From NCBI RefSeq assembly GCF_000621705.1, contig NZ_JHXO01000007.1:186001-250000 (forward strand): a stretch of 64,000 nucleotides of DNA. The letters run 5' to 3'. The DNA comes from Prolixibacter bellariivorans ATCC BAA-1284 (GTDB taxonomy: Bacteria; Bacteroidota; Bacteroidia; Bacteroidales; Prolixibacteraceae). The position numbers and the translations under genes are program-made. The notes under the pieces were generated by a model, which was not told where the DNA came from, did not search any database, and worked only from the letters and a program-made list of their open reading frames with translations. The number at the start of each line of letters is the position of its first letter. Within the stretch, counting starts at the first letter, position 1. Below, piece after piece: positions 16,577-62,383 of the stretch.

Positions 16577-16595
16577 TTGTATTGGCTCAACACAA

Positions 16596-18138: not shown

Positions 18139-18154
18139 TTCCGGTTAACCGGAA
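18139..18154. promoter_or_regulatory. 16-nt perfect palindrome in the cinA-asmA gap
   Basis: TTCCGGTTAACCGGAA is self-complementary without a loop. It lies 60 nt after the cinA stop and 34 nt before the asmA-like start, in a good place for a dimeric repressor or activator site. It has no U run, so it is not an obvious terminator. The binding protein is unknown. Confidence 0.4.
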
Positions 18155-18187
18155 TGAGAAAAATATAGATAAATAAAAAACGATGAT

Positions 18188-30468: not shown

Positions 30469-30474
30469 GAAAAG

Positions 30475-30547
30475 TGACTGAGCTGGGGCTCGAACCCAGG
30501 ACCCACGCCTTAAAAGGGCGTTGCTCTACCAGCTGAGCTACTCAGTC
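30475..30547 (-). tRNA. tRNA-Lys (UUU), copy 1
   Basis: A 73-nt cloverleaf on the minus strand. The acceptor GACTGAG pairs with CTCAGTC, with discriminator A. The D arm is AGCTCAGCTGGTAGAGC, the anticodon arm ACGCC-CTTTTAA-GGCGT with anticodon TTT, and the T arm CTGGGTTCGAGCCCCAG. CCA is not encoded. Recognised by the anticodon and the acceptor; tRNA-Lys is the only fit. Confidence 0.98.
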
Positions 30548-30580
30548 ATCCTTTAGATGCCTTTGTTTTTCAAAGGCGGT

Positions 30581-30612
30581 GCAAATATATTTTCTTTTCG
30601 TTGAAATGCAAA
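30581..30612 (-). promoter_or_regulatory. Bacteroidota promoter of tRNA-Lys copy 1
   Basis: Minus strand: -33 TTTG (30612-30609), exactly 19 nt, then -7 TATATTTG (30589-30582, followed by C). The start site should fall near 30574, giving a ~27-nt leader that holds a small hairpin (GCCTTTG-AAAAA-CAAAGGC) before the mature 5' end. Confidence 0.85.
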
Positions 30613-30698
30613 ACTGAATGTATTTTTTAATCGTAATGGCTGAAATATTTTTCGTTTTCTGCCATAATTTCAATGAAAAAAAGAACGTTGAAAAAAAG

Positions 30699-30771
30699 TG
30701 ACTGAGCTGGGGCTCGAACCCAGGACCCACGCCTTAAAAGGGCGTTGCTCTACCAACTGAGCTACTCAGTC
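30699..30771 (-). tRNA. tRNA-Lys (UUU), copy 2
   Basis: Same 73-nt structure and anticodon TTT as the first copy, with one base change in the D loop/stem (CTCAGTTGGTAGAG in place of CTCAGCTGGTAGAG). It lies 151 nt from copy 1 on the same strand and has its own promoter, so it is not processed from a shared transcript by necessity. No CCA encoded. Confidence 0.98.
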
Positions 30772-38145: not shown

Positions 38146-38180
38146 ATAGCAGATTACTAAATAATAAAAAGGATTTGACG

Positions 38181-46440: not shown

Positions 46441-49119
46441 TTATTGTATTCGAACTAATTGAATTTCATTGAGTAAGAATCGGTTAACTTTACCATTCAT
46501 GTTGGTGTTACAATCATCAAACTGTATACTGAACTGATGTGTACCTTTGCTTAACTTTACATCCACTACATTGCTCCATCCCCAATCGGACCACTCGTTT
46601 TTTCCCCTTTGCGGAAAAACCAGCGCTCCTTTAAATTGATTGTCTAGATAGAAAGAGCGAATACCGCATTTATTGTCGGTATTCACCGGTCCGCTGCCGT
46701 TGGCATATCGAAAACGGAAGCGGTAAACTCCAGTCGTTGGGAGGGTTACCCTGAAACTAAAAGGCCGATTGTTTTCGAGATTGAATTCAACGTAACCATT
46801 ACCTATATATCCACTCACTTCTTTCTTTAATGGATAATTGAATTGCTCTGCCTGAATTGCTATAAGAGAGGATGTTGGAAAAATTTCAACAGGCTGGCTT
46901 AAAAATGAAGTTGTACCATCATTTGCCACCGCGTCAACCTGGTAAGTTGCAGGTACACTCTTTTTAAAAATTAGGCTTGTGGTATCCTTTATTTCTGAGA
47001 CAACCGTTCCGTTTTTGACGATGCGATATTTGGCAGCCCCTTTGATGGAGTTCCAGGTCAAAACTTCTCCCTTGAGCTCTGCCTCGGGAGTAGCAGGAGC
47101 AGTTATAAAAGGAGCCATTTTCACAGCAGGTCTGTCCGGATGATTGTTCATCACCATTTCAACGGTATGTTTTCCGGTTAAACCGGAAGGAATAACAGGT
47201 GTTTTGAGCAACCTCCCATCTAATTTAAAAGTTGAAACAGAATTACCAAATCCACTTACTGTCAGTGATAAAATAGATTCACGATAATGAAAATTATCCA
47301 AATGGTAAGTTCCACCAAAGTTTTTCGGAATAACCGGATGAAAACGCAGACTATCGGGTCCCGGGATTATACCAAATATGATTCGGAAAGTCATGGCCAG
47401 TTGACCCCCAATACTCCACAACTGGCGACTGGAATTGAGTACGGTTCCGGCAAAATCGCCCGTTTCAGCAACCATGTTTTCCTTGTTTGTCAAAAATAAG
47501 GCTGCGGCCCGAAGCTGAGTCGCATAGCTATAGGCGACCATGCTTTGCTGTTTTTCTTTTGCTGCAGCCAAAGTCCAGAATGCCTGCACAAAGGGCCAGC
47601 TGCCATTGTTGTGGTATGGCGAAATACCCGGGGTTTGCGGATAAATACAGGGAATTCCGTAGGGGAGAAGCGGTGTATTTTCCAGCACCGACTGGCTTCT
47701 GGATGAATCGGCAATACCGAAAAGCAAGGTAAACGCTTCGCCCAGGGATTCAGAACGCGGCGAAAGACTAAAGGCGTTTCGACCGTAAAGGTATTGCCCA
47801 TAGTAGCCCTTGTCTGCTTCCCACAGGTGTGCATTTATGCTCTTTTTCAGTGAATCAGCTTTGGCACTCCACGAATCGGTTGCTCCCAATTCATTGGCCA
47901 TTTTGCCCAACACTTTGAGCGTTTGGTAATGAACGGCATTCGTTCCCAGGTTCATTGATGCATAGATATCGACGGGCTGCATCCAACGCGGATACGTTTG
48001 CTTCCGCCAGTCGAGGAAAGATGATTCCCCACGCATCAAACCGATTGCCGGGTCAACGATGGTCCGTTGATCGCATTCTACCGAGTTGCGAACAATTTCG
48101 TAGCTCGTTTTCAGCCAGTTTTTGTCACCGGTGGTTTTGTATATCTCCCAGGCAGCCAAAGACCACACAACCCGATCGGACGAAACAGGCCACGCACCGC
48201 CGGTCCCGGTGTCCTGAATAATGTGGCCATCTTTCACTTTCTTCATTAAGCTGATTTTGGCCACCTCCGGTTCTAACATTGCCAGCGACAGTACGATGCT
48301 GTAGCTGATGTCCCGGGTCCAGACACCGCCCCATTTATCGCCGGTGCGAAAGGTACTGTCGGCTTCAATGTCCTGTTTCAGCTCGTCCAAAGAAAGCCGG
48401 TAGATGGAATTCAGTAGCGGAGACTCACTCCTAAAAACCGGATATTGAGCGATGTCATTCTTCAGTTTCCATTCAGGTCCGACATGCGCATCCGGATCAA
48501 AAGCATTGAAGACCAATGTTACACTGTAAATGCCATCGCCATCAGGGTCGGTGAGTTCCAGTTGTTTGTTGTTGGGCAGGTTCTCGAAGTCCCAGTTCAA
48601 CGGATAAGCACTTCCGGCAATGTACACGCCCTTAAAATCCTTCCGGTAAATTTTATTACCATGAATATCTTCGTAGTAGCCTTTGGTTTTGAAAGCGTTC
48701 AGTACCGGACGCATATCGAGATTGAACTGCACTTTGGTATTCTCCGGTAGGTTTACTGCAGACTGATGCTCGGGTGAAAGTTCGCTTCGTTTTCCGAATA
48801 CGGCATTGATGACCACCGGTTGATTCCCGGTAGGGCTTAAATCAGCCTCGTGATTGACATTGAAGTCCAGCTCATTATCCTTGCCATTGATGCTGAATTT
48901 GAATTGAAGCAGAGGACTGAATGCCTGTTTCGCCGGACTTTTGTAGTTGGTCACCATGTGCGTATCCGAAAGCGCTTTGGCTACAAAGGAATCCTGAACA
49001 ACCCGGTCGGAATAGACCGTAAATTCCGGACTTTGATACAGCACTTTTTCCTTTTTCCGACAGGAAGAGAAGGTCGCCACGAAAAGCAATACCATGGCAA
49101 TTGATAGTAATTGTTTCAT
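46441..49119 (-). CDS. Secreted six-hairpin glycosidase with C-terminal carbohydrate-binding module
   Basis: Started at ATG 49119, the protein is 892 aa with a lipoprotein signal (QLLSIAMVLLFVATFSSC). The layout is an N-terminal beta domain; an (alpha/alpha)6 barrel with GGVWTRDISYSIVLSLAM, TGGAWPVSSDRVVWSLAAWE, SFLDWRKQTYPRW and AETGDFAGTVLNSSRQLWSI (acidic candidates in DW and AET); then a short beta linker; and a C-terminal CBM35/6-like domain (IAIQAEQFNYPLKKEVSGYI; GVYRFRFRYANGSG). This resembles MGH1/GH15/GH63-type clan members, but I cannot assign a CAZy family. It starts 17 nt after the GH31 stop and is the last gene of the locus. Confidence 0.85.
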   Translation of the reverse strand: MKQLLSIAMVLLFVATFSSCRKKEKVLYQSPEFTVYSDRVVQDSFVAKALSDTHMVTNYKSPAKQAFSPLLQFKFSINGKDNELDFNVNHEADLSPTGNQPVVINAVFGKRSELSPEHQSAVNLPENTKVQFNLDMRPVLNAFKTKGYYEDIHGNKIYRKDFKGVYIAGSAYPLNWDFENLPNNKQLELTDPDGDGIYSVTLVFNAFDPDAHVGPEWKLKNDIAQYPVFRSESPLLNSIYRLSLDELKQDIEADSTFRTGDKWGGVWTRDISYSIVLSLAMLEPEVAKISLMKKVKDGHIIQDTGTGGAWPVSSDRVVWSLAAWEIYKTTGDKNWLKTSYEIVRNSVECDQRTIVDPAIGLMRGESSFLDWRKQTYPRWMQPVDIYASMNLGTNAVHYQTLKVLGKMANELGATDSWSAKADSLKKSINAHLWEADKGYYGQYLYGRNAFSLSPRSESLGEAFTLLFGIADSSRSQSVLENTPLLPYGIPCIYPQTPGISPYHNNGSWPFVQAFWTLAAAKEKQQSMVAYSYATQLRAAALFLTNKENMVAETGDFAGTVLNSSRQLWSIGGQLAMTFRIIFGIIPGPDSLRFHPVIPKNFGGTYHLDNFHYRESILSLTVSGFGNSVSTFKLDGRLLKTPVIPSGLTGKHTVEMVMNNHPDRPAVKMAPFITAPATPEAELKGEVLTWNSIKGAAKYRIVKNGTVVSEIKDTTSLIFKKSVPATYQVDAVANDGTTSFLSQPVEIFPTSSLIAIQAEQFNYPLKKEVSGYIGNGYVEFNLENNRPFSFRVTLPTTGVYRFRFRYANGSGPVNTDNKCGIRSFYLDNQFKGALVFPQRGKNEWSDWGWSNVVDVKLSKGTHQFSIQFDDCNTNMNGKVNRFLLNEIQLVRIQ

Positions 49120-49136
49120 TGTTATGCGGTTAGTCG

Positions 49137-51635
49137 CTATTTTTCGATGGTTATATGTGCTACTGTTTGGTTGGCCGGGACGTAAATGGTACACACATGT
49201 GCAGCCTTATCCCAGGACCATTGAACGCGCTTCGCGAAATGTTTCCCGGAAGGATTCCAGGCTTCCTTTACTTTCTTCATTTTTCCGTCTTGTGTGATAA
49301 CGGAATGCGGAGCTTTATCCAAATAGAGCTGATAAACTAACTCTCTGGGAGTAAGTTCGTAACCATTTGATACCTTCAGTGAATAATTAATGGCATAAGC
49401 TTCGCGGGTCGTGCTGCAAACCAGTTGTCTTTCGGCGAAGATGTTTCGTTTGTAGTCATTGCTTTCGCCGTCGTCTTCGTATACCGAAAAAGTGGCCTTT
49501 TTATTCACTGAAGCCGGATAAACATGCAGGATTAAAGGATAACGCGGGTTTTGTTTAATGAATTGCATGACCGGCATCATGGGAACGATGGAACCTTTGC
49601 GGACAAAGAGGGGCGTGGTTTCCAGCGAAACCGGATAATCAATCCACTGCTTCCCGGTATAAACCGTTTTCGGATGCTCAAAGTCAATCCATTCGCCTTC
49701 CGGGAGATAGACTTTTTTCGAAGCGGCGCCTTCTTCCGTTACCGGAGCAACCAGCAATTCCTTCCCGAAAAGGAATTCACTATTTAGATCGGCTGTTTCC
49801 GGATCATCGGGATATTCGAGCATTAGGGCGCGCATTAGCGGAAGGCCTGTATCATGCGCTTTCCGTGCATACGAGTAGATGTATGGGAAAAGCTGGTATT
49901 TCCGTTCAATAGCTTTTTTGCAGATGGCTTCTACTTCCGGACCAAACCGCCACGGTTCCACGGCGTTGTTACCCTCGTGGTGGGCGCGGCTGATGGGATT
50001 AAATACCCCGAATTGCATCCAGCGGGTATAGAGCTCGCCTTCGGCCTGGTAGTCGGTTATATCGCCGCAATAGCCCGAAATATCACAACTCCAGAAGGGA
50101 ATACCGCCCATCCCGGCGGAAAGGGCCAACGGAATTTGTGCAGTGAGTTTTTTCCAGCCTTGAGTCACGTCGTCACCATTACCTGAATCGCCTGACCAAC
50201 CGAAGGTGTACCGCTGCATTCCGGCGAAAGCCGAACGGGTCATTTGGAAAATGCGAGTATTCGGATTGTGTTTTTCAAATTCTTCGGTTACAACCTTGTC
50301 CCAGGTGAGGCCGAAAACGTTGTGTATTTCGGCGTGCATGCCCAGGTAGTGCTTCATGTTGAGCCGGTCAGTGCTCTCTTCGTTACTCCAGGCGGGTTCG
50401 CCCATATCAGTCCAGAAACCGCGTACACCCTGGTCAATTACTTTTTGCTGGTAGTTACCCCACCAGTCGGCGACTGCAGGATTAGTGAAATCGACCACGC
50501 CGCAGTTTCCGCCCCAGGGCCAGGGCATGTCATACGATTTTCCGGTACGAATATCTTTCACAAAATAGCCCAGCGAATCGGCTTCTGTCCATTGTGCTTT
50601 GTTGTTTTGTGAAACCACTGGGTCCTGCGAAACAATTACTTTGAATCCCTGATTTTCGAGGTCTTCTAGCATCTTCACCGGGTCGGTGTAATTCTCCCTT
50701 CGCCAATTGAAATCCTGCAAATACTGCGTCCAGCCAATGTCCTGAAAAATGATATCGCAGGGAATTTGCCGGTCGCGGAAGCCTTTGGCAATCTCGCGTG
50801 TGAGCTTTTCATTGGTTAGCATACCACGCGATTGCGAGAATCCGAGTGCCCAATCGGGCGGCATGATGGGATGACCGGTCAGATTCATGTACCGGCCGAT
50901 AATCTGTTTGTAAGAAGGACCGTAGATAAAGTAGTAAATCATCTCGCCGCCGGGAGTTGCGAACGAATAGTTATCGCCTGATTCAGAGCCAAAATGATAG
51001 ATCGTTTTGTAGGTATTGTCGAAGTAGATTCCGTAACCCTCGCTGCTCATGAAAAAGGGAATGCTTTTGTAAAGTGGGTCTTTGTCGACCTCGTAACAGG
51101 GATTATCACTGTTCCACATTTTAAACTGGTGACCAACGCGATTGATGGAACCGTTTTTTTCGCCCAGTCCGTAGATGCGTTCCCCCGGACGCAGGCTAAC
51201 GTAACTGGCCATTCGGGTGGAATCCATTTCGAAACCGCGATTTTGGTAATCATCCATCAATAGTTTCTGATACTTGTCGAAAATACTGATGTGGAAAGGA
51301 GCTTTCCGTACCCGGATGATCAAATCGCCGGTGTATATTTCGTAGTGTTGTGGTTGCTCCGAAATATTCAGCTTTTGGTTCCCATTGGATTCGTCGGCTA
51401 CTACGGCAAATGACTGATTATTTCTGTGAAAATCGTCGGTATCGTACCATATTCGGATGATTCCGGGACCGACTTCTTTTATCTGAACGTTGATGTTGTT
51501 TTCACAGGTAAATACAGCCGTATTTCCCTCGACTGAATAACTCCGGCAATTCCCCGGATGAATAACATCTGAAGCTTTTATTATTCCTGCAAAGAAGAGC
51601 ACAAAAGCTACCGTTTGTATGATTCGTTTTATCAT
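49137..51635 (-). CDS. Glycoside hydrolase family 31 (alpha-glucosidase type)
   Basis: Started at ATG 51635, the protein is 832 aa with a signal peptide (MIKRIIQTVAFVLFFAGIIK). The GH31 barrel has the nucleophile Asp410 in VRGFWTDMGEPAWS and the acid/base Asp483 in FGWSGDSGNGDD, with the usual QSRGMLTNEKL and RIFQMTRSAFAGMQRY segments. The WTDMGEP form is typical of alpha-glucosidases and dextran-type enzymes. It ends 17 nt before the six-hairpin gene. In dextran loci GH31 removes glucose from isomalto-oligosaccharides. Confidence 0.95.
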   Translation of the reverse strand: MIKRIIQTVAFVLFFAGIIKASDVIHPGNCRSYSVEGNTAVFTCENNINVQIKEVGPGIIRIWYDTDDFHRNNQSFAVVADESNGNQKLNISEQPQHYEIYTGDLIIRVRKAPFHISIFDKYQKLLMDDYQNRGFEMDSTRMASYVSLRPGERIYGLGEKNGSINRVGHQFKMWNSDNPCYEVDKDPLYKSIPFFMSSEGYGIYFDNTYKTIYHFGSESGDNYSFATPGGEMIYYFIYGPSYKQIIGRYMNLTGHPIMPPDWALGFSQSRGMLTNEKLTREIAKGFRDRQIPCDIIFQDIGWTQYLQDFNWRRENYTDPVKMLEDLENQGFKVIVSQDPVVSQNNKAQWTEADSLGYFVKDIRTGKSYDMPWPWGGNCGVVDFTNPAVADWWGNYQQKVIDQGVRGFWTDMGEPAWSNEESTDRLNMKHYLGMHAEIHNVFGLTWDKVVTEEFEKHNPNTRIFQMTRSAFAGMQRYTFGWSGDSGNGDDVTQGWKKLTAQIPLALSAGMGGIPFWSCDISGYCGDITDYQAEGELYTRWMQFGVFNPISRAHHEGNNAVEPWRFGPEVEAICKKAIERKYQLFPYIYSYARKAHDTGLPLMRALMLEYPDDPETADLNSEFLFGKELLVAPVTEEGAASKKVYLPEGEWIDFEHPKTVYTGKQWIDYPVSLETTPLFVRKGSIVPMMPVMQFIKQNPRYPLILHVYPASVNKKATFSVYEDDGESNDYKRNIFAERQLVCSTTREAYAINYSLKVSNGYELTPRELVYQLYLDKAPHSVITQDGKMKKVKEAWNPSGKHFAKRVQWSWDKAAHVCTIYVPANQTVAHITIEK

Positions 51636-51740
51636 TTTTCGTCTTATTATTTGGTTCAGGAAACACAAAGCATCCCCTGAAGAACCGATGATCCTTCTAC
51701 TCTTTTTACTTATTCTCTATTTGTTTCTCTGGTCTTTCTG

Positions 51741-53510
51741 CTAATTATATTCTATCACCAACATTCCCCAATACTGCATCTCCGGAACGGTACAGGTGAG
51801 GTTAGAACCGTCTTGCGTAAATGCCAATTCTTCGGATGAACCGTAGCGATAATCGGGTGAAGCGTACCAGACCTTCTTCACTGTTTTTGAAGTCTCAATC
51901 TGCAGCGATAAATCTTTTATCACACGCTGAAAAGGTTGCGTTCCTGAAGCATCCCTCCAGTTCAGGCTGGTAGCGTCCATGTAATTCAATAAGTTGATAA
52001 CCTGCGTAGAACCGAAATCTTTTCCTGCCACAGCAACACTTCCGGTTTGTGGCGGCCAACTGTTGACATTAATTTGTCCGTCAAGTGAAGTCACTGACGG
52101 CGTGTTGAAATCGCCGTTGGCCTGCAATAGATTCTCATAAGCTACCTGAAAATCATAATAAGTGGTCAGCGCTTCTTTCAGGTCGGTCCGCATCAACAGG
52201 TTGTTGTTAGGGAAATATTCCTTGGCCAGCATGTGTTCTCCAAGTTCCAGATGGCTTCCGCCGAAAGCGAAAATAACGGCATCGGTCATCAACACGCCCG
52301 GCGTATTGAAATAGCCGGTGGAGTTGGCTTTGTCGTAATCCATGTAAGCAGCCAATACTGTTTTGGTACCTGCTCCGCCCATTTTAGTGTTGTCCTGAAT
52401 GATATTAGCCAGGTCCTCGTATTTATCGTTGGGGGACCAAACTTCGGTGTAGGCAAAATTTACCGGCGTCGACAGAATGTTGGCCTGACCATATTGATTG
52501 ACCGCATTCATCACCATTTTCTTATTCGGAAAACGTTGGTTCAAATTATTCAGGAACGAGCTGAATCCGTAAGGCAAGTCAGCTTGCTGTCCATTATAAT
52601 CGTAGACTGTTCCCCGATCGCCCAACTGGTCCAGATGCCAGCCGTCAAAATCAAGGAACTGGTAAACCAACGCCGTTTGATCGTCGATGTATTTCTGCCA
52701 GTCGAGATTGGCCGGATCGAGGACAAAGATGTCACTCAATGCCCAGTTGTTATCCAAATCGTGCTTGTTCACATTCTGATGATTGGCATCGTTATACAGC
52801 ATCCATGTAGATGAAACACCATCTGTAGCATAATCGTCCCAGGCACCGTAAAGCAAATTGTAAAACATGGAGGCAATGCCGTATTCGTGCGCTTTATCGA
52901 TGTAACCTTTCACCACGTCGAAGGAGACATCTCGTTTGGCAATATCCTGCCACTCCGCGGCGGGTTGTGAGCCATCCATCTTCAGTGGTGCATGATGCTT
53001 GTTTTGCCAGTCGTAGTATTGAATTCCATTGATATGATAGCGGGTGACCTTTGCTAGTTGCGTATTGATATCATCACTAGTCACATCACCCGAAAACTCT
53101 GAAAGAAAACCGTATCGGGGAAAATGTGTCCAGTCGGATGAAACATCCACACCAATACTTCCATACACCACTTCTTTGCCATCGACGGTTTCGTACACAT
53201 CCACCATATAACCCGTGAAATCGGTATTTGGAGCCGTCCATTGCCAGGTTTTCCCGGGGAAATCCTCTTCTTTGACAACTTCATTTAAATGACGATATCT
53301 GATTTTTGCCGAGGAAGTTAACCCCTTGTCGGCCGTAAACTGTATCACATCGCCGGGATGATACAAGGCTTTGTCGGTTGAGAGTTTTACCGCGGTGTTG
53401 GTCGTCGGATTATCCGGTCCGTCAGGTGAAGGAGCGGGTGCGTCCGATTTACTGCAACCTGCGAGTATGAATACGATAAGTAGATAATATAGTTTATTAA
53501 GGCTTGTCAT
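51741..53510 (-). CDS. GH66 endo-dextranase / cycloisomaltooligosaccharide glucanotransferase family lipoprotein
   Basis: The 589-aa protein has a lipobox (VFILAGCSKSDAP, Cys19) with an acidic mature start, so it is probably on the cell surface. After a beta domain (STDKALYHPGDVIQFTADK) comes the GH66 barrel: HINGIQYYDWQNKHHAPL, the nucleophile candidate Asp294 in DFDGWHLDQLGDRG, and the acid/base candidate Glu356 in FAYTEVWSPND. GH66 enzymes cut alpha-1,6-glucosidic bonds inside dextran. There is no CITase-type CBM35 insert visible. Bacteroides thetaiotaomicron uses a GH66-GH31 pair in its dextran locus. Confidence 0.92.
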   Translation of the reverse strand: MTSLNKLYYLLIVFILAGCSKSDAPAPSPDGPDNPTTNTAVKLSTDKALYHPGDVIQFTADKGLTSSAKIRYRHLNEVVKEEDFPGKTWQWTAPNTDFTGYMVDVYETVDGKEVVYGSIGVDVSSDWTHFPRYGFLSEFSGDVTSDDINTQLAKVTRYHINGIQYYDWQNKHHAPLKMDGSQPAAEWQDIAKRDVSFDVVKGYIDKAHEYGIASMFYNLLYGAWDDYATDGVSSTWMLYNDANHQNVNKHDLDNNWALSDIFVLDPANLDWQKYIDDQTALVYQFLDFDGWHLDQLGDRGTVYDYNGQQADLPYGFSSFLNNLNQRFPNKKMVMNAVNQYGQANILSTPVNFAYTEVWSPNDKYEDLANIIQDNTKMGGAGTKTVLAAYMDYDKANSTGYFNTPGVLMTDAVIFAFGGSHLELGEHMLAKEYFPNNNLLMRTDLKEALTTYYDFQVAYENLLQANGDFNTPSVTSLDGQINVNSWPPQTGSVAVAGKDFGSTQVINLLNYMDATSLNWRDASGTQPFQRVIKDLSLQIETSKTVKKVWYASPDYRYGSSEELAFTQDGSNLTCTVPEMQYWGMLVIEYN

Positions 53511-53578
53511 TTTCGGTTAACTTTCTGAATAACAACTATCATAGTTGAAACCCCGTTAGGTTTTAATCTGCTGTAAAA

Positions 53579-53605
53579 CTGGCGGAGAGATGAACACTCC
53601 GCCAG
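53579..53605 (-). promoter_or_regulatory. Intercistronic stem-loop between the SusE/F-like gene and GH66
   Basis: CTGGCGGAG-TGTTCATCT-CTCCGCCAG is a perfect 9-bp GC-rich stem with a 9-nt loop, 10 nt after the SusE/F-like stop. On the minus strand only TTTTACAG follows, so it is a weak terminator at best. It may protect the 3' end of the susCDE part of the mRNA or attenuate the enzyme genes. Confidence 0.75.
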
Positions 53606-53614
53606 CTATTAAAT

Positions 53615-55093
53615 TTATTGTTTCTGAATATTAATGGTTAAATCCTGAACATTAAGCGTAAGGGTGTAGGTTCCCGCATCGGCAGCAGAAATAGTCCACT
53701 TGTTGTCATCTGCTTCGCCACCGATGTGCCGGTACATTTTGGTCGGATCATTCGGATCAGGCATATACATATCTTGTCCCCAGTCGCTGTTTCTGTTAAC
53801 CGGGAATTTGAATTCGCCTTCTCCCAAATCTCCCTGGAATGTGAAGATGTACCAGTTATTCGGGTCCTGTGTCAATTCAATCGCGTTGGTGATATCCCAT
53901 CCAATGGAAGTCGCCGATCCCACAATGTAGAGCTTCAACGGCTCGATGGTAATGGTCATTTTTTTCAAATCAACCATGACGTGATACTGGTTTTCATTGG
54001 TTATCGTCCATTTGTTATCATCCGGATCACCGCCGTTGTGCAAATAGATCTTTGTTGAATCGGAGGGATCACGCATGTACATATCCTGGCTCCAGTCGGT
54101 ATTCCGGTTGACCGGAATTTTGAAATCTCCGGGTGTCAACACGCCGTCGTAGGTAAACTGGAAGAGGTTATCCGGATTCTGAACCATTGGTGTAGCATTG
54201 GCAATATCCCAACCATTTGGAGTAGCATCACCGACCAAATAGAGCTTATCATAAGGCGGACCGGGTTGTTTGGTAATGGTGATGGTCAAATTCACCAGGT
54301 TCAGCTTAATAATGTAGATGCCATCTTCTGCAATGGTAAACTGATCGTCTGGTTGTGCAGCATCTGTGCGGTAGATCAACGTATTTTCGTCTTTGCCTTT
54401 CTGATAAGAAGGCAGGAATGAACCCAGCGTGGTAATGAATTTCAGATTTCCGGCTTTCAACGTTCCCTGATAAGAGAATGTGGTCGGATCGTTTGCATCC
54501 GGAGTCATTGCTATTGCATTATTGGCATCCCAGCCATTTGGTGACGCATCACCAATCAGGTATAGTGTACTGGAAACCGGTTCATACGGTGTAACAGCAA
54601 ACTTCGATGCTTCGGTTACGTCATCCGGGACGGTTTCGCCGGCGATTTTGGCCGTAATCCGAGCTTCCAGTGTTACGGCGGTTCCGGGCTGAACGTTCCA
54701 ATAGTTCAGAAGCAAGTCATTCAATTCGCTTACCGTGAAATCTTTCTGGTAAACGGCTTTGCCCATGTTGTAGGACTTGGCATTGGCAAAATTGTTGCCA
54801 TCCTGATCTAGATCCAATGTGTAGGAGATGGAGTTACCGGTTCCCTGGTTACTGCCGGCTGTCCAGTTAATGCTGACTGCAACACTGGCATCATTTTTCT
54901 GCGCAAGCACAACGTTATCGGCTGAAGTCGACAGCGCCACCGGTGCTCCCATGGAAATAGTAATGGGTTCATCCTTGGTGCATGAATTCATCATGAACAC
55001 CGATGATAAGCTAAGCAACAGAATGAGCGTTAGTGAGCTGATATTCGCCCACGCCTGTTTCTTCTGATGTATATGAATATTGTATTTTTTCAT
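53615..55093 (-). CDS. SusE/SusF-like glycan-binding lipoprotein, 492 aa
   Basis: The lipobox is MMNSCTKDE (Cys38), after a long signal sequence. It has an N-terminal SusE-type Ig domain (residues ~45-170: ALSTSADNVVLAQKNDASVA) and three starch-binding-like beta domains at ~177-276, 284-384 and 388-490. These begin LYLIGDASPNGWDANNA, LYLVGDATPNGWDIANA and LYIVGSATSIGWDITNA. Domains two and three are near copies (NRNTDWSQDMYMRDPSD / NRNSDWGQDMYMPDPND). The Trp residues in GWD and DW are good candidates for sugar stacking. The protein is expected on the surface, holding substrate for SusCD. Located between SusD and GH66. Confidence 0.9.
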   Translation of the reverse strand: MKKYNIHIHQKKQAWANISSLTLILLLSLSSVFMMNSCTKDEPITISMGAPVALSTSADNVVLAQKNDASVAVSINWTAGSNQGTGNSISYTLDLDQDGNNFANAKSYNMGKAVYQKDFTVSELNDLLLNYWNVQPGTAVTLEARITAKIAGETVPDDVTEASKFAVTPYEPVSSTLYLIGDASPNGWDANNAIAMTPDANDPTTFSYQGTLKAGNLKFITTLGSFLPSYQKGKDENTLIYRTDAAQPDDQFTIAEDGIYIIKLNLVNLTITITKQPGPPYDKLYLVGDATPNGWDIANATPMVQNPDNLFQFTYDGVLTPGDFKIPVNRNTDWSQDMYMRDPSDSTKIYLHNGGDPDDNKWTITNENQYHVMVDLKKMTITIEPLKLYIVGSATSIGWDITNAIELTQDPNNWYIFTFQGDLGEGEFKFPVNRNSDWGQDMYMPDPNDPTKMYRHIGGEADDNKWTISAADAGTYTLTLNVQDLTINIQKQ

Positions 55094-55206
55094 TATTTCA
55101 TTGGTTTAAATGAAAAGGAGCAGAGCTTCCTCCGCAGAGGAAAAATGAACTGAATAAAACTCTGTTCTTTTCCAAATTGTCAATATTCGGGTTATTCTCC
55201 TCTGTT

Positions 55207-56676
55207 TTAATAACCTGGATTTTGTGTCAGGTTCGGATTGGCATCAATTTCCTTTTGAGGAATGGGCAGCAGCAGAAATTTGCTGGTGGCATTCACTTTG
55301 CCGATGGAATGCAGGAAGTTTAGCCCGTAATCGCCGTTGTCAACGCGAATCAAATCGAACCAACGTTGTCCTTCGAACGCCAGTTCCATGCGGCGTTCGT
55401 GCAATACCTTCGCCTTGAAATCGGCTTGCGATAAACCGGTTACTGCAGGTAATCCGGCACGGGCACGCACTTCATTCAGTGGTGCTTCAGCCTCGGATGT
55501 TTTGCCCAAATTGTTCAGCGCTTCGGCTTTCATCAGCAACACATCGGCATAACGCAGTATTGGGAAATCCATCGGACTATTGTCATATGAAGACGCAACT
55601 GATTTGGGAACCAGAAATTTGCGCAGATTGTATCCGGTCGTAGAATAGCCCGGATCGTAATCCATGCCGTCGAATTGCGGACACCCATCATATAGAATGG
55701 TTACATCCTTACGGAGATCGCCAGGTTCGTATGAATCGACAAACTCCTGGGTAGGTTGGTTCCATCCCCAGCCGCCGGCCACCATATTGGAGTTACGTGG
55801 ACCGGTAAAGGTACTTAGCCATGATGCCTGATTGGTATTGTCCCAGAAACCCTCACCGGCATTTCCGGTATACTGAATTTCGAAAAGAGACTCGACTGAG
55901 TTTTTCTTATCTACATCGAAGTTGTCGGCATAATTGGGATTTAGAGCATAACCCAGCGATTCTACTTCGTTTGCCAGTGTAACCACTTTATCCCACTGTC
56001 CAAGTGTCAGATATACCTTTGCTAATAAACCTGCGGCAGCACCTTTTGATGCTCTTCCCAGGTCACTGGATGAATATGAGGAGCGGGGCGGGAGCAATTG
56101 CTCGGCATCCGTCAGGTCAGCAATGATTTGTTCATAAACAGCTGCTTTGTCTGTACGCGAAGGACGAAGGTCATCACCAGGTTCCTGTGGAACGGTAATC
56201 AACGGAACATCACCAAAGAAGCGTACCAGGATGAAGTAGTATAATCCGCGCAGGAATTTGGCTTCACCAATGATTCGGTTTTTCAGATTTTCATCGATGT
56301 TCATGTCCGGGACCTTTTGCAGGATGATGTTACAACGCAGTATACCGGGTGACGGTCCGCGCCATAAATCAAGTACTCCGGCATTGTCTGTCGTGGTAAC
56401 GAAGTTGGCTTCATCTTGTGTCTCAATACCGTCAGTTCCGCCACCGGCACCGACGATACTGTTGCCTGCCATGATATCGGTGGTCCACATACGCATGTTG
56501 TACAGTTTGGGCCACTGTAAAGGTTGGTAAGCGCCATTAATGGCTGAGATGGCATCTTCTTTCGTTTGAAAGAAGTTTGCCGTATTGATCGAGTCGAGTG
56601 GTGCCTTTTCCAGAAAACTTTTGCTGCAGGCGACACTCATAAACATTGCTAATATCAGTATGAAATATTTTTTCAT
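55207..56676 (-). CDS. susD: SusD family outer-membrane glycan-binding lipoprotein
   Basis: The lipobox is SVACSKSFLEKAPLD (Cys17), followed by the SusD/RagB domain (INTANFFQTKEDAISAINGA; RNIILQKVPDMNIDEN-type start). The end carries ARAGLPAVTGLSQADF, then LHERRMELAFEGQRWFDLIR, and finally PIPQKEIDANPNLTQNPGY, the near-universal SusD end. 489 aa is normal. SusD closes over the SusC barrel like a lid and helps select oligosaccharides. It starts 18 nt after the SusC stop. Confidence 0.97.
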   Translation of the reverse strand: MKKYFILILAMFMSVACSKSFLEKAPLDSINTANFFQTKEDAISAINGAYQPLQWPKLYNMRMWTTDIMAGNSIVGAGGGTDGIETQDEANFVTTTDNAGVLDLWRGPSPGILRCNIILQKVPDMNIDENLKNRIIGEAKFLRGLYYFILVRFFGDVPLITVPQEPGDDLRPSRTDKAAVYEQIIADLTDAEQLLPPRSSYSSSDLGRASKGAAAGLLAKVYLTLGQWDKVVTLANEVESLGYALNPNYADNFDVDKKNSVESLFEIQYTGNAGEGFWDNTNQASWLSTFTGPRNSNMVAGGWGWNQPTQEFVDSYEPGDLRKDVTILYDGCPQFDGMDYDPGYSTTGYNLRKFLVPKSVASSYDNSPMDFPILRYADVLLMKAEALNNLGKTSEAEAPLNEVRARAGLPAVTGLSQADFKAKVLHERRMELAFEGQRWFDLIRVDNGDYGLNFLHSIGKVNATSKFLLLPIPQKEIDANPNLTQNPGY

Positions 56677-56694
56677 TGTTCAATCTTTTGCATG

Positions 56695-59600
56695 TTAGAA
56701 ATTCATGTTGACGCCGAAACTGAATGTTTTGGTCACCGGATATAGTCCGTTGTCAATACCATTGACTGTTCCACCGCCATCAATGCTCGAGTCTTGTACT
56801 TCCGGGTCAAAGCCGGTGTAGTTAGTTAGGGTATAAAGATTGGAACCGGAGAAGTAAACTCTTACTTTATTCATTCCCCATTTCCTGGTAAGGTTATCAG
56901 GTAACGTGTATCCGAAAACTACGTTTTTCAATCTCAGGTACGAGCCGTCTTCAATCCAGCGATTGGATGGACGGGTATTTTTGTTCGGATCGTTGAATAT
57001 TGCACGAGGAACATTCGTTTGATCACCTTCTTTCTGCCAGCGTTTCAGCGTTTCGGTGGTCTGGTTGTATGCAACAGCCATTCCTTCGCTCCAAATCCGG
57101 TTAACGTTCAGAATTTTATTTCCGGATACGCCCTGTAGAAATACAGAGAGATCGAATCCTTTATAGGAAAAGGTATTGTTGAGTGCGAAAATGAATTTCG
57201 GACTGGGATTTCCCAGGTAGGTACGGTCAGCGTCGTTGATAACACCGTCGCTGTTCAGGTCTTTAAACCGGATGTCACCTGCTGAGGTACGGTTGTACGG
57301 ATCGAGTCCGGGAACCTGTACGGCATGATTATCAACTTCCTGCTGATTCTGGAAGATGCCATCGGTCACAAATCCGTAGAATTCATTTACCGGCTGTCCT
57401 TCGGCTATACGTGCAGCTGCAAAGTTGAAATTGAAGCTGCCGGTAGTCATCGGAATGGAATCATTCAGACTGGTCACCTTATTTTCGTTGTAGGAAATAT
57501 TGAAATCGGTGTTCCATTTGAAACCGCCTTTGTCAATGTTTCTGGACGAAATGGTTAATTCCGCTCCTTTGCTTTCCATTTTACCGGCATTGATGGAAGG
57601 AACATCTACGTCAGAATATCCGGTCGAAATCGGAACCGACATCGGTACCAGCATATCGTTGGTATTTTTCTGATACACATCAGCTGTGATGTTGATTCGC
57701 TGATTCAGAATCGTGGCATCGAAACCGAGGTTGATCTGCTCCTGTGATTCCCATTTTACATTCGGATTAGGCATCATGTTGGGTACAACGGCACTGACAA
57801 TGTTGTCATTAAAGTTGTATTTTACAGTTTCCAGTTTCGAGGCGAATGAGTAGTTACCAATCTCTTGGTTTCCGGTGAAACCGATGCCGGCACGAATTTT
57901 CAGATCATCGATAAAATGAATGTTCTCGAAGAATTTCTCCTGCGAAATGCGCCATGCCACCGAACCCGACGGGAAAATTCCCCATTTATTGCCGGAACCG
58001 AAACGTGATGAACCATCACGACGAACGGTGGCAGTTACCAAATATTTGTCGGCGTAGTTGTAGTTTACTCGTGCCATGTAGGAAAGTAATGACCATTCAG
58101 AAGCATTCCCGTCCAGGGTCACTTGATCGGTTCCATTGCCCAGTTGCTGTGTTAAATCGCTGGCAAAATTTTGAATGGAACCTTTCATGAAATCGTAGCG
58201 ATTCTCCTGGGCACTGGTACCTACCATGGCCGTCAGATGATGAACATCTTTAAACGTTTTAGTGTAGGTGAGAGTATTGTCCCATACCCAGGTAATACTC
58301 TTATTGGATGCCTGGTATAGGTACGATTGATCCTGAGGAGTCGGTTTCCAGTCGTACTTGGGCGACCATGTGCGATCGTACCAGAAATTGGCCTGCAAAC
58401 CCGCATTGGTTTTGAAAACCAAACCATCAAGCAGGGTAATTTCAGCGTATACTGCACCACGGACATTGTAGCCATTGGTTGAATTGTCGATGAGTTTAGC
58501 CGAACCAATCGGGTTGCGGATATCGCCATCCCACGACGGACGTCCTTCCGGACCGGCATACGTTCCGTCTTCGTTATATATTGGTTGTGTAGGAAGCGCT
58601 TTAATCGTATTCCCGATGTTGTAATCGCCTTTGCTTTTAATATCGTGATTCAAAGTCAGGCGGTTGCCAAATTTGACATTCTTGAAAACCTTCGACTCGG
58701 AATTGAACTGTACGGTGTACCGTTTGTAGTTGGTATTCATCACAATTCCATCCTGATCCAATACATTTCCGGATATGTAATAGCTTGTTTTTTCGCTTCC
58801 GCCGGAATAGGAGACTGACAGGTTATGCATACCTGCCGGGCTAAACAGCGCTCCGAGCCAATCGGTGCCTTTTCCAAGCGATGAGGGATTGGCATAAGCC
58901 GGATTCTGTTCCAGACCTGCATTGGCCATCATATCGTTGTGCAATGCGGCAAACTGCGATGCATCCAACACTTTAATCATGTTAGTGGCTTGCTGGATTC
59001 CGTAGTTGTAGTCGACATTAATGTTGCCTTTGCCCGATTTACCCAACTTGGTAGTAATAATGACGACACCGTTGGCACCACGCGAACCATAAATCGCGGT
59101 AGCGGAAGCGTCCTTTAATATCTGGACCGATGCAATGTCATTCATGTTTAACTGATTCAGTCCGTCCTGGGTAGGAACACCGTCAATAACCAGCAACGGG
59201 TTGTTGTTGTTAATGGTTCCCAGCCCACGGATCCGGATGGTTGCATCACTTCCCGGCGCTCCATTCGAGATAATCTGAACGCCGGCTGCCCGTCCCTGCA
59301 AGGCATCGCTTACACTAGGAACCGGAAGGGATTCCATATCTCCGGTACGTACCGAGACAATCGATCCGGTCAAATCCTTTTTCTTCTGGTAGCCGTAACC
59401 CACAGCCACCACTTCGTCCAAACCAATGGCCTGCTCCTGCATGATTACATTCAGAGTAGGCTCGCCGTTTAAAACAACTTCGCGGGTTTTCATTCCAACA
59501 AACGAGAAAACCAACGTGGTGCCAACCGGGGCATCTGCAAGATTGTAGTTCCCGTTAAAATCAGTGATCGTTCCGTTGGTCGTTCCCTTTATCACGATAG

Positions 59601-60057
59601 TAACACCGGGAATAGGGTCTCCTTTGGGATTAGTCACTTTTCCTTTTAAAGGATGAGACTGCGGCTGGGTAGTGTTGGTAGGTTCCTCACTACCATTTTT
59701 GGGATAAAGTACAATGCGTCGGTCGATGATTTTGTAGGTAATGTTTCTACCTTCAAATAACCGGTTCAGAACGTCTTCAATGTTACTCTCGTTCGCTTTT
59801 ATGCTAACGCGATCATCTAACTGAATCTGGTCAGCATTGTAAAAGAAAACAAACTGAGTTTGCTGTTCAATCTGATTCAGTGCATTTTCCAGGGTCGTAT
59901 TTTCGAGGTTGACCGAAAGTCGGGTTTCCTGCGAATAAACACTGGCTGAGACCTGCATCAGGCTTAGAAGTAAAATGACGAACGTTAGTCGCATAATTAA
60001 CCATAGTTTAATCATGCCATTCCTGGGAAAGGCAAGCAATCGAAACTTTTTTTTCAT
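56695..60057 (-). CDS. susC: SusC family TonB-dependent transporter with N-terminal STN domain
   Basis: The 1120-aa protein has a signal (LTFVILLLSLMQVSASVYS) and an STN domain (residues ~45-115: TRLSVNLENTTLENALNQIE; IEDVLNRLFEGRNITYKII). A carboxypeptidase-like domain follows (PLKGKVTNPKGDPIPGVTIV). Then come the plug (LDEVVAVGYGYQKKKDLTGS; ILKDASATAIYGSRGANGVV) and the beta barrel. The STN domain is the part that contacts a FecR-type anti-sigma factor, and such a gene lies directly upstream, as in hybrid signalling/transport systems. It brings oligosaccharides across the outer membrane powered by TonB/ExbB/ExbD. Confidence 0.97.
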   Translation of the reverse strand: MKKKFRLLAFPRNGMIKLWLIMRLTFVILLLSLMQVSASVYSQETRLSVNLENTTLENALNQIEQQTQFVFFYNADQIQLDDRVSIKANESNIEDVLNRLFEGRNITYKIIDRRIVLYPKNGSEEPTNTTQPQSHPLKGKVTNPKGDPIPGVTIVIKGTTNGTITDFNGNYNLADAPVGTTLVFSFVGMKTREVVLNGEPTLNVIMQEQAIGLDEVVAVGYGYQKKKDLTGSIVSVRTGDMESLPVPSVSDALQGRAAGVQIISNGAPGSDATIRIRGLGTINNNNPLLVIDGVPTQDGLNQLNMNDIASVQILKDASATAIYGSRGANGVVIITTKLGKSGKGNINVDYNYGIQQATNMIKVLDASQFAALHNDMMANAGLEQNPAYANPSSLGKGTDWLGALFSPAGMHNLSVSYSGGSEKTSYYISGNVLDQDGIVMNTNYKRYTVQFNSESKVFKNVKFGNRLTLNHDIKSKGDYNIGNTIKALPTQPIYNEDGTYAGPEGRPSWDGDIRNPIGSAKLIDNSTNGYNVRGAVYAEITLLDGLVFKTNAGLQANFWYDRTWSPKYDWKPTPQDQSYLYQASNKSITWVWDNTLTYTKTFKDVHHLTAMVGTSAQENRYDFMKGSIQNFASDLTQQLGNGTDQVTLDGNASEWSLLSYMARVNYNYADKYLVTATVRRDGSSRFGSGNKWGIFPSGSVAWRISQEKFFENIHFIDDLKIRAGIGFTGNQEIGNYSFASKLETVKYNFNDNIVSAVVPNMMPNPNVKWESQEQINLGFDATILNQRINITADVYQKNTNDMLVPMSVPISTGYSDVDVPSINAGKMESKGAELTISSRNIDKGGFKWNTDFNISYNENKVTSLNDSIPMTTGSFNFNFAAARIAEGQPVNEFYGFVTDGIFQNQQEVDNHAVQVPGLDPYNRTSAGDIRFKDLNSDGVINDADRTYLGNPSPKFIFALNNTFSYKGFDLSVFLQGVSGNKILNVNRIWSEGMAVAYNQTTETLKRWQKEGDQTNVPRAIFNDPNKNTRPSNRWIEDGSYLRLKNVVFGYTLPDNLTRKWGMNKVRVYFSGSNLYTLTNYTGFDPEVQDSSIDGGGTVNGIDNGLYPVTKTFSFGVNMNF

Positions 60058-60117
60058 AGATTTGTAATGCTAAGTTCTACAAATGAATAGCTCCAACTAT
60101 TCGTTTTTAATTTAACA

Positions 60118-60150
60118 GCCGGGAAGTGCTCCAACATTTCCCGGTTTTAT
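60118..60150. promoter_or_regulatory. Hairpin between the FecR and SusC genes
   Basis: GCCGGGAA ... TTTCCCGGT forms an ~8-bp stem with an 11-nt loop, about 12 nt after the FecR stop. The T-rich flank lies on the wrong side for minus-strand termination. It may be a processing or attenuation element separating regulator genes from the transport genes. Confidence 0.6.
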
Positions 60151-60155
60151 TGTTT

Positions 60156-61169
60156 TTATTTCCGTTCAATCCATATATCAGTGCTGTCACGTTGTACTTT
60201 GATGGGAATCGTCAGGTTAACCAGATCAAAGAATTTTTCAATGTTGTCGTCTTTGTAGGCAGCTCCCGAGAAGACTTCTTTGCCGAGTTCAACATCCCGG
60301 AAGTGTATGTTCACTTTGTACATCCGCTCCAGTGTTTTCGCTATCTCGTTTAGTGGTTGCCGGTTGAAGTGATACTCGCCGGTTCGCCAGGTGGTAACCA
60401 GATTGGCATTGGCTTTTACAACTTTATCCTGCCCGGTACTCTTGTCATAACTCCATTGTTCACCCGGTTTCAGCATTACCGGCGCTTCTTTTTGCGGAAT
60501 ATCTTTAATTTCCACAACTCCTTTCAATAGCGTGGTTTCTGTTCGGTTGTCTTCCGGATAGGCCCGAACATCGAATTGTGTCCCTAGTACGTTCACACTC
60601 ATATTGGGCGTAATGACCCGAAAAACGCGTGATTTATTGTGTGTCACTTTGAAATAGGCCTCTCCAACCAATTCGATTTCCTGTAGTTTTTTGTCAGGCG
60701 AAATGTGGTATTTCAGTTTGGAATCGTAGTTCAGTGCCACAAATGTGCCATCGGGCAACGTTACTTCCGATTGCTGTCCGCGCGGAGTATTGAATTCAAT
60801 GACCTGGCTTTGCAAATCACCGGAAGAAAAGAAATGCCTTTCGCCCAGGAAATAACTGGTTACTCCCAGGATAAGAAGAATGGAAGCTGCTGCTGCAATA
60901 CGAGGCAATCGTTTGATAAAATGACCTGAAAACTTGCTTTTGCGGCGAAAGATATCGAGTGATTCGTGCTTTATTCTTTTGAAATCATCGTCTCCGATTT
61001 GTGATTGTTGAATCTCATTTCGTTTCCATTTCAGCACATAACCAATCAACAGGGCCAGGGCCGATTCGCGGTTTTTCCTTTTTTCCTCGTGGTAATCCCG
61101 GAGCGAATCTTTGGTCAGCTTGTTCTGAAATTGTTTATCAAACAAATGATCAGAGATGTTCTTTTTCAT
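60156..61169 (-). CDS. FecR family anti-sigma factor
   Basis: A 337-aa protein with an N-terminal cytoplasmic part (residues 1-~90) that includes a short helical anti-sigma segment. One TM helix (LPRIAAAASILLILGVTSYF) follows, then the periplasmic FecR domain (FNTPRGQQSEVTLPDGTFVA; PNMSVNVLGTQFDVRAYPED) and a C-terminal STN-like DUF4974 domain (PLNEIAKTLERMYKVNIHFR). It should hold the sigma factor inactive until the STN of SusC signals that substrate is bound. Located between sigma and SusC genes, 130 nt after the sigma stop. Confidence 0.95.
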   Translation of the reverse strand: MKKNISDHLFDKQFQNKLTKDSLRDYHEEKRKNRESALALLIGYVLKWKRNEIQQSQIGDDDFKRIKHESLDIFRRKSKFSGHFIKRLPRIAAAASILLILGVTSYFLGERHFFSSGDLQSQVIEFNTPRGQQSEVTLPDGTFVALNYDSKLKYHISPDKKLQEIELVGEAYFKVTHNKSRVFRVITPNMSVNVLGTQFDVRAYPEDNRTETTLLKGVVEIKDIPQKEAPVMLKPGEQWSYDKSTGQDKVVKANANLVTTWRTGEYHFNRQPLNEIAKTLERMYKVNIHFRDVELGKEVFSGAAYKDDNIEKFFDLVNLTIPIKVQRDSTDIWIERK

Positions 61170-61299
61170 GGTGTTCGGTTTACTCTTTATCCTAAAAAGC
61201 CAAACCGTTGGTTATATACCCCTCTGTTAAATGTGCTGTAAAACATATTTGTGATTTTACCGCTAAAAGGAAGGGGAGAGGTGTCCGGATTTTGCAGCT

Positions 61300-61887
61300 T
61301 TAGCGAAATGAAGAGTTGAAAAAGAGGAGGATGGATTCGGAGGTAGTGTCCAGCAATTCTTTTAATTTGTTGATAGCTTTCTGCACGTTGTTTCCAACCG
61401 TTTGGTAGTTCACTTGCATCACTTCCGCCACTTCTTGATTGGACAAATTCTTATAAAATTTCAGATAGATGGTCTCTTTTAACCGGGGAGGTAATTCGTT
61501 AATGGCTTGTGCCAACTGGTCGAGTCGTAGTTCTTTTTCTTCCGGATCGACTTCCGTGGTATAACTGAGACGGAATTCGTCCAGTCGCTCATCATCCAGC
61601 ACGGTTTCCCCTTTCCGGTTGTTCTTTCTGAGGTTAGCAAAGATTTTCAACCGCAGCGATTTCAGCAAATAAAAAAGAATGTTGTCAGTAGAAGAGAGTT
61701 TGTCTTTTTTTCGGGCCAGTTCGAAAAACAAATCCTGGATGCTGTCGCGAACCAAAAACTCGTCCGAAGTAAATCGTTGCCCATATTCATACAAAGGCAA
61801 ATGATAAGTGTCGAAAATATAGGAAAAGGCTTTTTCATCACCACGCTTAAAGCGTTCCCAAATTTCTTCATCCGGATTTAGCCGCAT
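61300..61887 (-). CDS. FecI-type ECF sigma factor, ~195 aa
   Basis: The start is placed at ATG 61887 (MRLNPDEEIWERFKRGDEKA); a TTG three codons earlier is possible. Region 2 (FLVRDSIQDLFFELARKKDK; DNILFYLLKSLRLKIFANLR) and region 4 (LKETIYLKFYKNLSNQEVAE; VNYQTVGNNVQKAINKLKEL) are complete. This is the Bacteroidota family-1 ECF group that pairs with FecR and SusC. It is the first gene of the locus and is probably autoregulated with it. Confidence 0.95.
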   Translation of the reverse strand: MRLNPDEEIWERFKRGDEKAFSYIFDTYHLPLYEYGQRFTSDEFLVRDSIQDLFFELARKKDKLSSTDNILFYLLKSLRLKIFANLRKNNRKGETVLDDERLDEFRLSYTTEVDPEEKELRLDQLAQAINELPPRLKETIYLKFYKNLSNQEVAEVMQVNYQTVGNNVQKAINKLKELLDTTSESILLFFNSSFR

Positions 61888-62303: not shown

Positions 62304-62310
62304 TGAAAAG

Positions 62311-62383
62311 TGACTGAGCTGGGGCTCGAACCCAGGACCCACGCCTTAAAAGGGCGTTGCTCTACCAGCTGAGCTACTCAGTC
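62311..62383 (-). tRNA. tRNA-Lys (UUU), copy 3
   Basis: 73-nt cloverleaf identical to copy 1 in all arms, with anticodon TTT and no encoded CCA. Its upstream leader matches that of copy 2 (CAAAGGATG before the mature 5' end), so promoter and leader were duplicated with the gene. It lies ~31.6 kb from copies 1 and 2. Confidence 0.98.

Follow-up and report, generated by a model that had tools for sequence, protein, structure and literature searches.

The 64,000-nucleotide stretch of Prolixibacter bellariivorans DNA analysed here (the window) carries eight genes on its minus strand, from 61,887 to 46,441, whose sequences mark them as a Sus-type locus for dextran use, of a kind already known but in a variant with predicted control by an extracytoplasmic function (ECF) sigma factor and a FecR-type anti-sigma factor. 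In the list of open reading frames (ORFs) the ECF gene comes first, followed by genes for FecR, SusC, SusD, SusE, members of glycoside hydrolase (GH) families 66 and 31 and, last, a six-hairpin protein that we name SixH. The gaps along the locus, from ECF-FecR onward, are 130, 98 (FecR-SusC), 18, 113, 104, 105 and 17 bases. We consider it probable that this is a dextran locus under ECF/FecR control in which SixH, a GH37/GH63-like protein predicted to be periplasmic, frees glucose from imported isomalto-oligosaccharides. A previous sequence-only reading had listed the same genes, order and coordinates and had called the whole an alpha-1,6-glucan locus; the ORF list together with Pfam and NCBIfam models bears out the former, and the families and model cut-offs of GH66, GH31 and SusC/D/E bear out the latter.

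GH66 scores 791.5 bits against the NCBIfam endo-dextranase equivalog NF052487, above its cut-off of 730, and its closest solved relative, 8iu8 (628 bits), is FjGH66 from the dextran locus of Flavobacterium johnsoniae; the GH66 of P. denitrificans DSM 27267 is 93% identical to that of the window. The closest solved relative of GH31 is 6jr6 (1,152 bits, query residues 37-842), which we take to be the F. johnsoniae dextranase from the dextran locus. Alongside this endo-dextranase GH66 and the 6jr6-like GH31 stand a SusC/SusD pair and a surface binding protein. Pfam and NCBIfam models likewise identify the ECF factor, a FecR protein with its FecR_C domain and an STN domain on the adjoining SusC, in which STN (residues 70-120) is followed by CarbopepD_reg_2 (137-217) and then the plug.

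Table 1. Features of the predicted dextran locus in transcriptional order, and the tRNA gene beside it (window coordinates).
Feature	Position	Strand	Basis and remarks
tRNA-Lys(TTT)	62310-62383	-	directly upstream of locus
ECF sigma factor	61300-61887	-	Sigma70_r4_2, TIGR02937; ORF opens at TTG 61896, ATG at 61887
FecR-type anti-sigma factor	60156-61169	-	PF04773 4e-19, PF16344 (FecR_C) 6e-15
fecR-susC intergenic region	60058-60155	-	two predicted hairpins, about 60146-60117 and 60102-60085
SusC-type TonB-dependent transporter	56695-60057	-	TIGR04056 937 bits; N-terminal STN PF07660 5e-13, residues 70-120
SusD-type glycan-binding lipoprotein	55207-56676	-	PF07980, PF14322; lipoprotein start by eye
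SusE/F-type glycan-binding lipoprotein	53615-55093	-	PF14292, PF16411 (three stretches); lipoprotein start by eye
GH66 endo-dextranase	51741-53510	-	PF13199 641 bits; lipoprotein start by eye
GH31	49137-51635 (ATG; ORF from TTG 51668)	-	type I signal peptide by eye
SixH	46441-49119 (49194 if upstream GTG start)	-	N-terminal beta part, (alpha/alpha)6 six-hairpin domain, C-terminal CBM35-like domain

Related loci were gathered by scanning species genomes with a GH66 alignment, which yielded 269 relatives. From these we took the 80 best, each with flanks of 10 kb if the contig was long enough. These 80 are the loci most like the window GH66, and those of Bacteroides thetaiotaomicron and F. johnsoniae UW101 are not among them. 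After clustering, ORFs received their labels from similarity to the window and, for representatives only, from Pfam and NCBIfam. The flanks of 49 of the 80 loci were long enough for the locus to count as full, and the tables rest on the 45 of them that have SusC. The regulator is SusR in 44 loci, ECF/FecR in 13 and a hybrid two-component system (HTCS) in 4, and none is in view in 19; in 14 of these 19 the start of GH66 is under 8 kb away from the end of the locus.

SixH occurs in 34 of the 80 loci and GH97 in 29. SixH always lies on the GH66 strand (34/34), preceded by GH31 (19), GH66 (14) or SusE (1), and it accompanies every kind of regulator: ECF/FecR in 8/13 loci, SusR in 17/44, HTCS in 4/4 and none in view in 5/19. 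Among fully covered loci its association with ECF was not significant (8/11 ECF loci vs 18/34 others, p 0.31). Of 395 genomes sampled evenly across the class, the window's own included, 13 have SixH (E 1e-40) and 7 have GH66; the 3 with both carry them no more than 3 kb apart (p 0.0009 for the overlap; 0.012 when the genome of the window is taken out). Moreover, 31 of the 100 nearest genomes match SixH at E 0.001, some to part of it only. The sequence-only reading had held the six-hairpin gene to be no usual part of the set, and SixH is indeed absent from the published gene lists of the B. thetaiotaomicron and F. johnsoniae dextran loci. Its recurrence across related GH66 loci and class genomes shows instead that SixH is a recurrent member of dextran loci and not an oddity of this one.

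In L043 (Gaoshiqia sediminis, 13748-19901) there are two consecutive ECF/FecR/STN-SusC units, the second directly after the SixH of the dextran unit, and L072 has a second unit in the same place. In L036, from congener G003, the locus is decaying beside tRNA-Lys, with GH66 and SixH in pieces and GH31 whole; regulator and Sus genes were not seen in 20 kb, and a 432-residue ORF on the opposite strand may be a transposase.

The six-hairpin assignment of the last gene, which had been made from the letters alone, agrees with both a Pfam match and a predicted fold. PF17389 (Bac_rhamnosid6H) scores 44.6-44.7 bits on SixH against a cut-off of 24.5, covering only 118 of 339 model positions, and matches all 32 members of our alignment (32 of the 35 window-plus-locus members; L070, which is incomplete, L076 and L085 were left out). 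The rhamnosidase domains PF08531 and PF17390 are not among the 11 Pfam families that match any of these 32, nor are GH15 models, and the trehalase model reaches 16.0 bits on SixH, below its cut-off of 21. Matches at NCBIfam are lacking for SixH, and TIGR01577 (oligosaccharide amylase) matches 3/31 members with a best E of 0.0043. Among 31 catalytic domains a trehalase model matches 17, and the best sequence matches in PDB are a putative rhamnosidase (4.5e-7), Escherichia coli trehalase (1.4e-6) and YgjK (6e-4). SixH is uncharacterised in that it has no specific Pfam or NCBIfam model and no account of it was found in the open-access literature, that on six-hairpin enzymes of dextran use included; its best Pfam label, the rhamnosidase six-hairpin domain, would probably mislead annotation. 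A GH78-like ORF in L032 has both PF08531 and PF17390; a rhamnosidase motif was not found even in a GH78-like ORF and was dropped.

It is quite possible, if still the lesser prospect, that SixH is a divergent GH63 of the mannosylglycerate-hydrolase/YgjK branch rather than a separate family. On SixH the MGH1-like Pfam model scores 30.3, over its cut-off of 27, and it matches 31 of the 32 members at E 0.01; its namesake, mannosylglycerate hydrolase, and YgjK are both titled GH63 in the PDB, and the alpha-glucosidase model PRK10137 matches 26/31 catalytic domains. However, the MGH1-like match spans residues 388-569 only and is outscored by PF17389, and no further GH63-named Pfam model matches any of the 32 members.

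A structure model of SixH built with 32 aligned relatives (mean predicted local distance difference test score, pLDDT, 84.7; predicted template modelling score 0.85) shows a helical barrel that follows a beta part at the N-terminus and is itself followed by beta domains at the C-terminus; a model of the catalytic domain by itself was poorer (pLDDT 76). The fold neighbours of the whole protein by Z score are GH94 (29.5), GH63 YgjK (28.9), GH37 (28.1), GH100 (28.0), amylo-1,6-glucosidase (27.5) and GH15 dextran dextrinase (27.4), and those of the catalytic domain alone are similarly bunched, with GH78, GH116 and GH65 as well. Naming the family by fold was given up, the neighbours lying within about two Z units across several families. 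In sequence profiles, hhalign aligns 347 columns of SixH with YgjK (single sequence, 86.5% probability) and 320 with TreA.

The tail of SixH (residues 789-897 of the long ORF) had been described from the sequence as similar to carbohydrate-binding modules (CBMs) of families 35 and 6, and it does match the CBM35s of alpha-1,6-glucan enzymes: cycloisomaltooligosaccharide glucanotransferase, or CITase (5x7g, E 2e-8), 5x7o (E 2e-11) and isomaltodextranase. Foldseek superimposes the tail on 5x7g at 2.7 A over 139 columns, and the Pfam CBM_35 model gives 16.7 on it, below the cut-off of 28. The CITase CBM35 module is named in PMC12446779, according to which dextran dextrinase, a six-hairpin enzyme, also carries a CITase-like CBM35.

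Counting from the ATG at 49119, Asp270, Asp370 and Glu547 of SixH are found in every member of two alignments, one of 17 and one of 32, and Glu365 and Asp384 in every member of the larger. The WTRD motif containing Asp270 is aligned by hhalign with WPWD of YgjK. The ENxxAxxG motif of SixH resembles ENYNPLTG of YgjK and so places Glu547, in a register set by eye, on YgjK Glu727, a residue altered in a YgjK glycosynthase structure according to PDB titles; Asp370, in GESSFLDW, likewise resembles by eye the ESGRD of YgjK. SixH begins like a lipoprotein by eye, with CRKKE at the cysteine, and SusE has CTKDE after its cysteine. Under the surface export-signal rule for lipoproteins CTKDE fits and CRKKE does not, which suggests that SixH is periplasmic. 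Among its orthologues some start like lipoproteins and others with a type I signal, and the final enzymes of F. johnsoniae dextran breakdown are proposed to be periplasmic (PMC10316084).

The most likely function of SixH is that of an exo-acting alpha-glucosidase of the inverting kind, which would cut imported isomalto-oligosaccharides to glucose, with Glu547 as putative general base, Asp370 as the most likely general acid and the WTRD motif, with Asp270, predicted to bind glucose. Its CBM35 may hold it on alpha-1,6-glucan, and we would put the 1,6 linkages of the chain first among its targets, before 1,2 or 1,3 branches. In loci without GH97, SixH would take over the glucose-releasing role of that enzyme. 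Among the 45 fully covered loci, 19 have SixH only, 14 have GH97 only, 7 have both and 5 have neither (Fisher p 0.0027). GH97 is found in none of the 11 fully covered ECF/FecR loci and in 21 of 34 others (raw p 0.0003), a difference that is not significant after correction for the tree (2.4 opposite vs 0 same of 4 independent pairs). L103, a less complete locus, has ECF with GH97; there GH66 stands between the GH97 and the ECF/SusC genes. According to the F. johnsoniae study (PMC10316084), GH97 is missing from several dextran loci, and SixH is a concrete candidate for the place of GH97 in such loci. Elsewhere in the window, at 14618-16576 (+), a GH97 comes close to the retaining alpha-galactosidase model, with 768 bits against a cut-off of 800. 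It is unlike the GH97 of dextran loci, for which that model gives 263 bits (L102).

Somewhat doubtful is the idea that SixH removes branches, taking 1,2- or 1,3-linked glucose off imported isomalto-oligosaccharides as GH65 does in F. johnsoniae, and leaves the 1,6 chain to GH31 and to a GH97 encoded elsewhere. Of 31 SixH members 3 match the kojibiose hydrolase model NF053734, the PRK10137 model that matches most of them is YgjK-type, FjGH65A (7fe3) is among the fold neighbours (Z 23.9), and the 7 loci with both enzymes would suit such a division of labour; the strongest response of F. johnsoniae is to 1,2/1,3-branched dextran (PMC10316084). On the other side, the CBM35 of SixH is like those of 1,6-glucan enzymes, and SixH tends to occur where GH97 is missing, a tendency that is not significant once corrected for the tree.

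The view of SixH as the glucose-releasing enzyme of the locus has a number of observations against it. Its exclusion of GH97 is imperfect, as the 7/45 loci with both and 5/45 with neither attest, and after correction on the GH66 tree it keeps its direction without being significant (7 independent pairs, 3.3 opposite vs 0.2 same, median p 0.25). The window genome itself has four GH97 genes over the cut-off, one of them 47% identical to the type found in polysaccharide utilisation loci (PULs) and outside the dextran locus, and it carries two GH65 genes, so that any replacement of GH97 concerns the locus and not the cell. A second SixH (G000:C10:203990-206632, in L032), 49% identical to the first, lies outside any PUL. 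It sits between an esterase and a thioesterase-like gene with a UvrD-type helicase next to them, an arrangement kept in three congeners. Most solitary SixH genes that were inspected adjoin unrelated genes (esterase, thioesterase, UvrD helicase, major facilitator superfamily, CBM48 or cadherin-like proteins), and that of L045 adjoins GH94, a sugar kinase and fucose isomerase. With GH97, GH65 and a second SixH in the genome and solitary copies elsewhere, the cell may be able to do without SixH, and the family may not be confined to dextran. The modelled fold, bunched as its neighbours are across GH94, GH63, GH37, GH100, amylo-1,6-glucosidase and GH15, fixes neither family nor substrate. Finally, hhalign shifts the Glu547/Glu727 register by a few residues and pairs Asp384, not Asp370, with YgjK Asp501, and Arg372 with TreA Asp312; we take YgjK Asp501 and TreA Asp312 and Glu496 to be catalytic.

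In a quick SixH tree of 44 rows, to which L014 and L020 were added, the 10 solitary rows, one of them the second SixH of the window genome, lie among PUL-linked ones and 4 changes suffice; L020 (branch length 10, probably a wrong reading frame) was ignored. Solitary genes outside dextran loci could speak for a locus that serves some other alpha-glucan, such as a branched exopolysaccharide, with linear dextran only a partial substrate, and so could the induction in F. johnsoniae of about 50-fold on one branched glucan vs about 10-fold on linear dextran (PMC10316084). We regard this as unlikely, however, as the GH66 exceeds the cut-off of the endo-dextranase equivalog and, among solved structures, is nearest to an enzyme from a dextran locus.

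The sequence-only reading had also proposed a trio of ECF, FecR and STN-bearing SusC instead of a SusR-type regulator, and this holds: the dextran loci of B. thetaiotaomicron and F. johnsoniae have SusR-type regulators (PMC10936149, PMC3878776, PMC10316084). Control of PULs by ECF/FecR has been described as a third regulatory class (PMC10316084, PMC3878776), and STN-bearing SusC occurs in ECF-controlled PULs (PMC7782687); there an N-terminal extension stands before STN, unlike the window SusC, where STN comes first. No ECF/FecR-controlled dextran locus stood out in the open-access literature.

A profile built from the STN region of the window and its own matches among the same 66 SusC ORFs, and hence favouring relatives of the window (compare L119), matches SusC in 12 of the 13 FecR loci at E <1e-23 and in 0/44 SusR and 0/4 HTCS loci, where no E fell below 0.003. 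The thirteenth FecR locus, L119, is divergent, with an N-terminus that is STN-like by eye, and among three loci with no regulator in view L067 alone matches. Mapped on the GH66 tree, the regulators require no fewer than 10 changes of type; the tree was made quickly, several of its forks are weak, and gene exchange would be counted as well. Because STN is found in FecR loci and not in SusR or HTCS loci, the regulator and the STN extension of SusC appear to change together.

The fecR-susC gap is the same in three congeners except for three extra bases in the window, and both of its hairpins carry the same GTTGGAGC tip. In 9 of 12 ECF loci of other genera this region folds a hairpin of different stem sequence (counted without a shuffled control), and in L081 the tip is repeated again; the observation concerns L040, L041, L058, L061, L063, L066, L072, L073, L081, L090 and L092. 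GTTGGAGC occurs 3 times in the window vs 1.5 expected, a number that 19 of 100 shuffles reach. Apart from the tRNA, an Rfam search of 41700-63200 gave a single match, to RNase P and below threshold, with none for the hairpins, and scans for sigma-70 promoters and terminators gave fewer hits than shuffles (20 vs 25.9 and 15 vs 18.6). Candidate roles for the hairpin are a terminator, an mRNA stabiliser or an RNA-protein site. The hairpin and the 98-base gap would also suit an arrangement in which ECF and FecR only tune the locus and the genes from susC on have a promoter of their own, as would the fact that no ECF promoter was identified (no ECF promoter model was applied); this is improbable, since STN goes with FecR across the 61 loci of known regulator, as would be expected if the signalling route is functional.

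ECF/FecR control of PULs is modelled on FecA/FecR/FecI. On this pattern, substrate loading of SusC would be relayed through STN to FecR and free the ECF factor to transcribe susC onward, so that import itself would be the inducing signal. Judging from their families, GH66 would cut dextran at the cell surface, SusE and SusD would bind dextran and its fragments, and SusC would import isomalto-oligosaccharides, on which GH31 and then SixH would act in the periplasm. That SixH is instead a transglucosidase or phosphorylase that reshapes these oligosaccharides, like GH15 dextran dextrinase or the GH94 phosphorylases, is highly improbable: both are among its fold neighbours, GH94 with the highest score, and dextran dextrinase shares a CITase-like CBM35 (PMC12446779), but the sequence matches of SixH are mostly to hydrolases, those to GH94 are weak (PF17167 in 3/32; 1v7v E 5e-4) and Glu547 fits the position of YgjK Glu727.

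With SixH as a glucose-releasing hydrolase, a broader proposal can be made tentatively. SixH may found an unnamed family of inverting alpha-glucosidases, made of a six-hairpin domain and CBM35, that would act as glucose-releaser in a large share of Bacteroidota dextran loci and be exchangeable with GH97; these loci may have switched repeatedly among SusR, HTCS and ECF/FecR, the STN of SusC being gained or lost with ECF/FecR. If the repeated switching is real, dextran loci are a natural series of three ways to sense one sugar. As the loci otherwise match, sharing a substrate and a transporter family but differing among three types of regulator, they would permit a clean comparison of import sensing with sensing of periplasmic oligosaccharides.

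Around the locus, tRNA-Lys also adjoins the dextran locus in three congeners. The three tRNA-Lys(TTT) genes of the window (30474-30771 and 62310-62383) have identical last 22 bases, and because no further copy of this end occurs in the window within three mismatches, there is no sign of tRNA-targeted insertion there. A 1151-residue ORF at 38175-41630 (+) has no Pfam match at 1e-5, and ORFs of the same size adjoin the locus in relatives.

Among known systems, PUL48 of B. thetaiotaomicron (BT3086-BT3091) shares with the window a GH66 endo-dextranase, GH31, SusC, SusD and a surface binding protein (PMC10936149, PMC7618045), but it has the SusR-type BT3091, no SixH in the published list and its GH97, BT4581, outside the locus. 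FjDexUL of F. johnsoniae (Fjoh_4428-4435) has SusC/D/E, GH66 and GH31 in the same order, and its final digestion is proposed to be periplasmic, as we predict for the window; unlike the window, it has the SusR-type FjDusR, and GH97 and GH65 at the place of SixH (PMC10316084). Bacteroides PULs under ECF/FecR control have the same consecutive sigma, anti-sigma and STN-SusC genes (PMC7782687, PMC3878776), whereas the trio of the window belongs to a dextran locus. SixH itself shares its fold class with GH63 YgjK and GH37 trehalase, and similar WxxD and EN...G motifs with YgjK, but differs from both in its accessory domains. Its tail resembles the CBM35 modules of GH66 CITase and isomaltodextranase, placed here on a six-hairpin catalytic domain.

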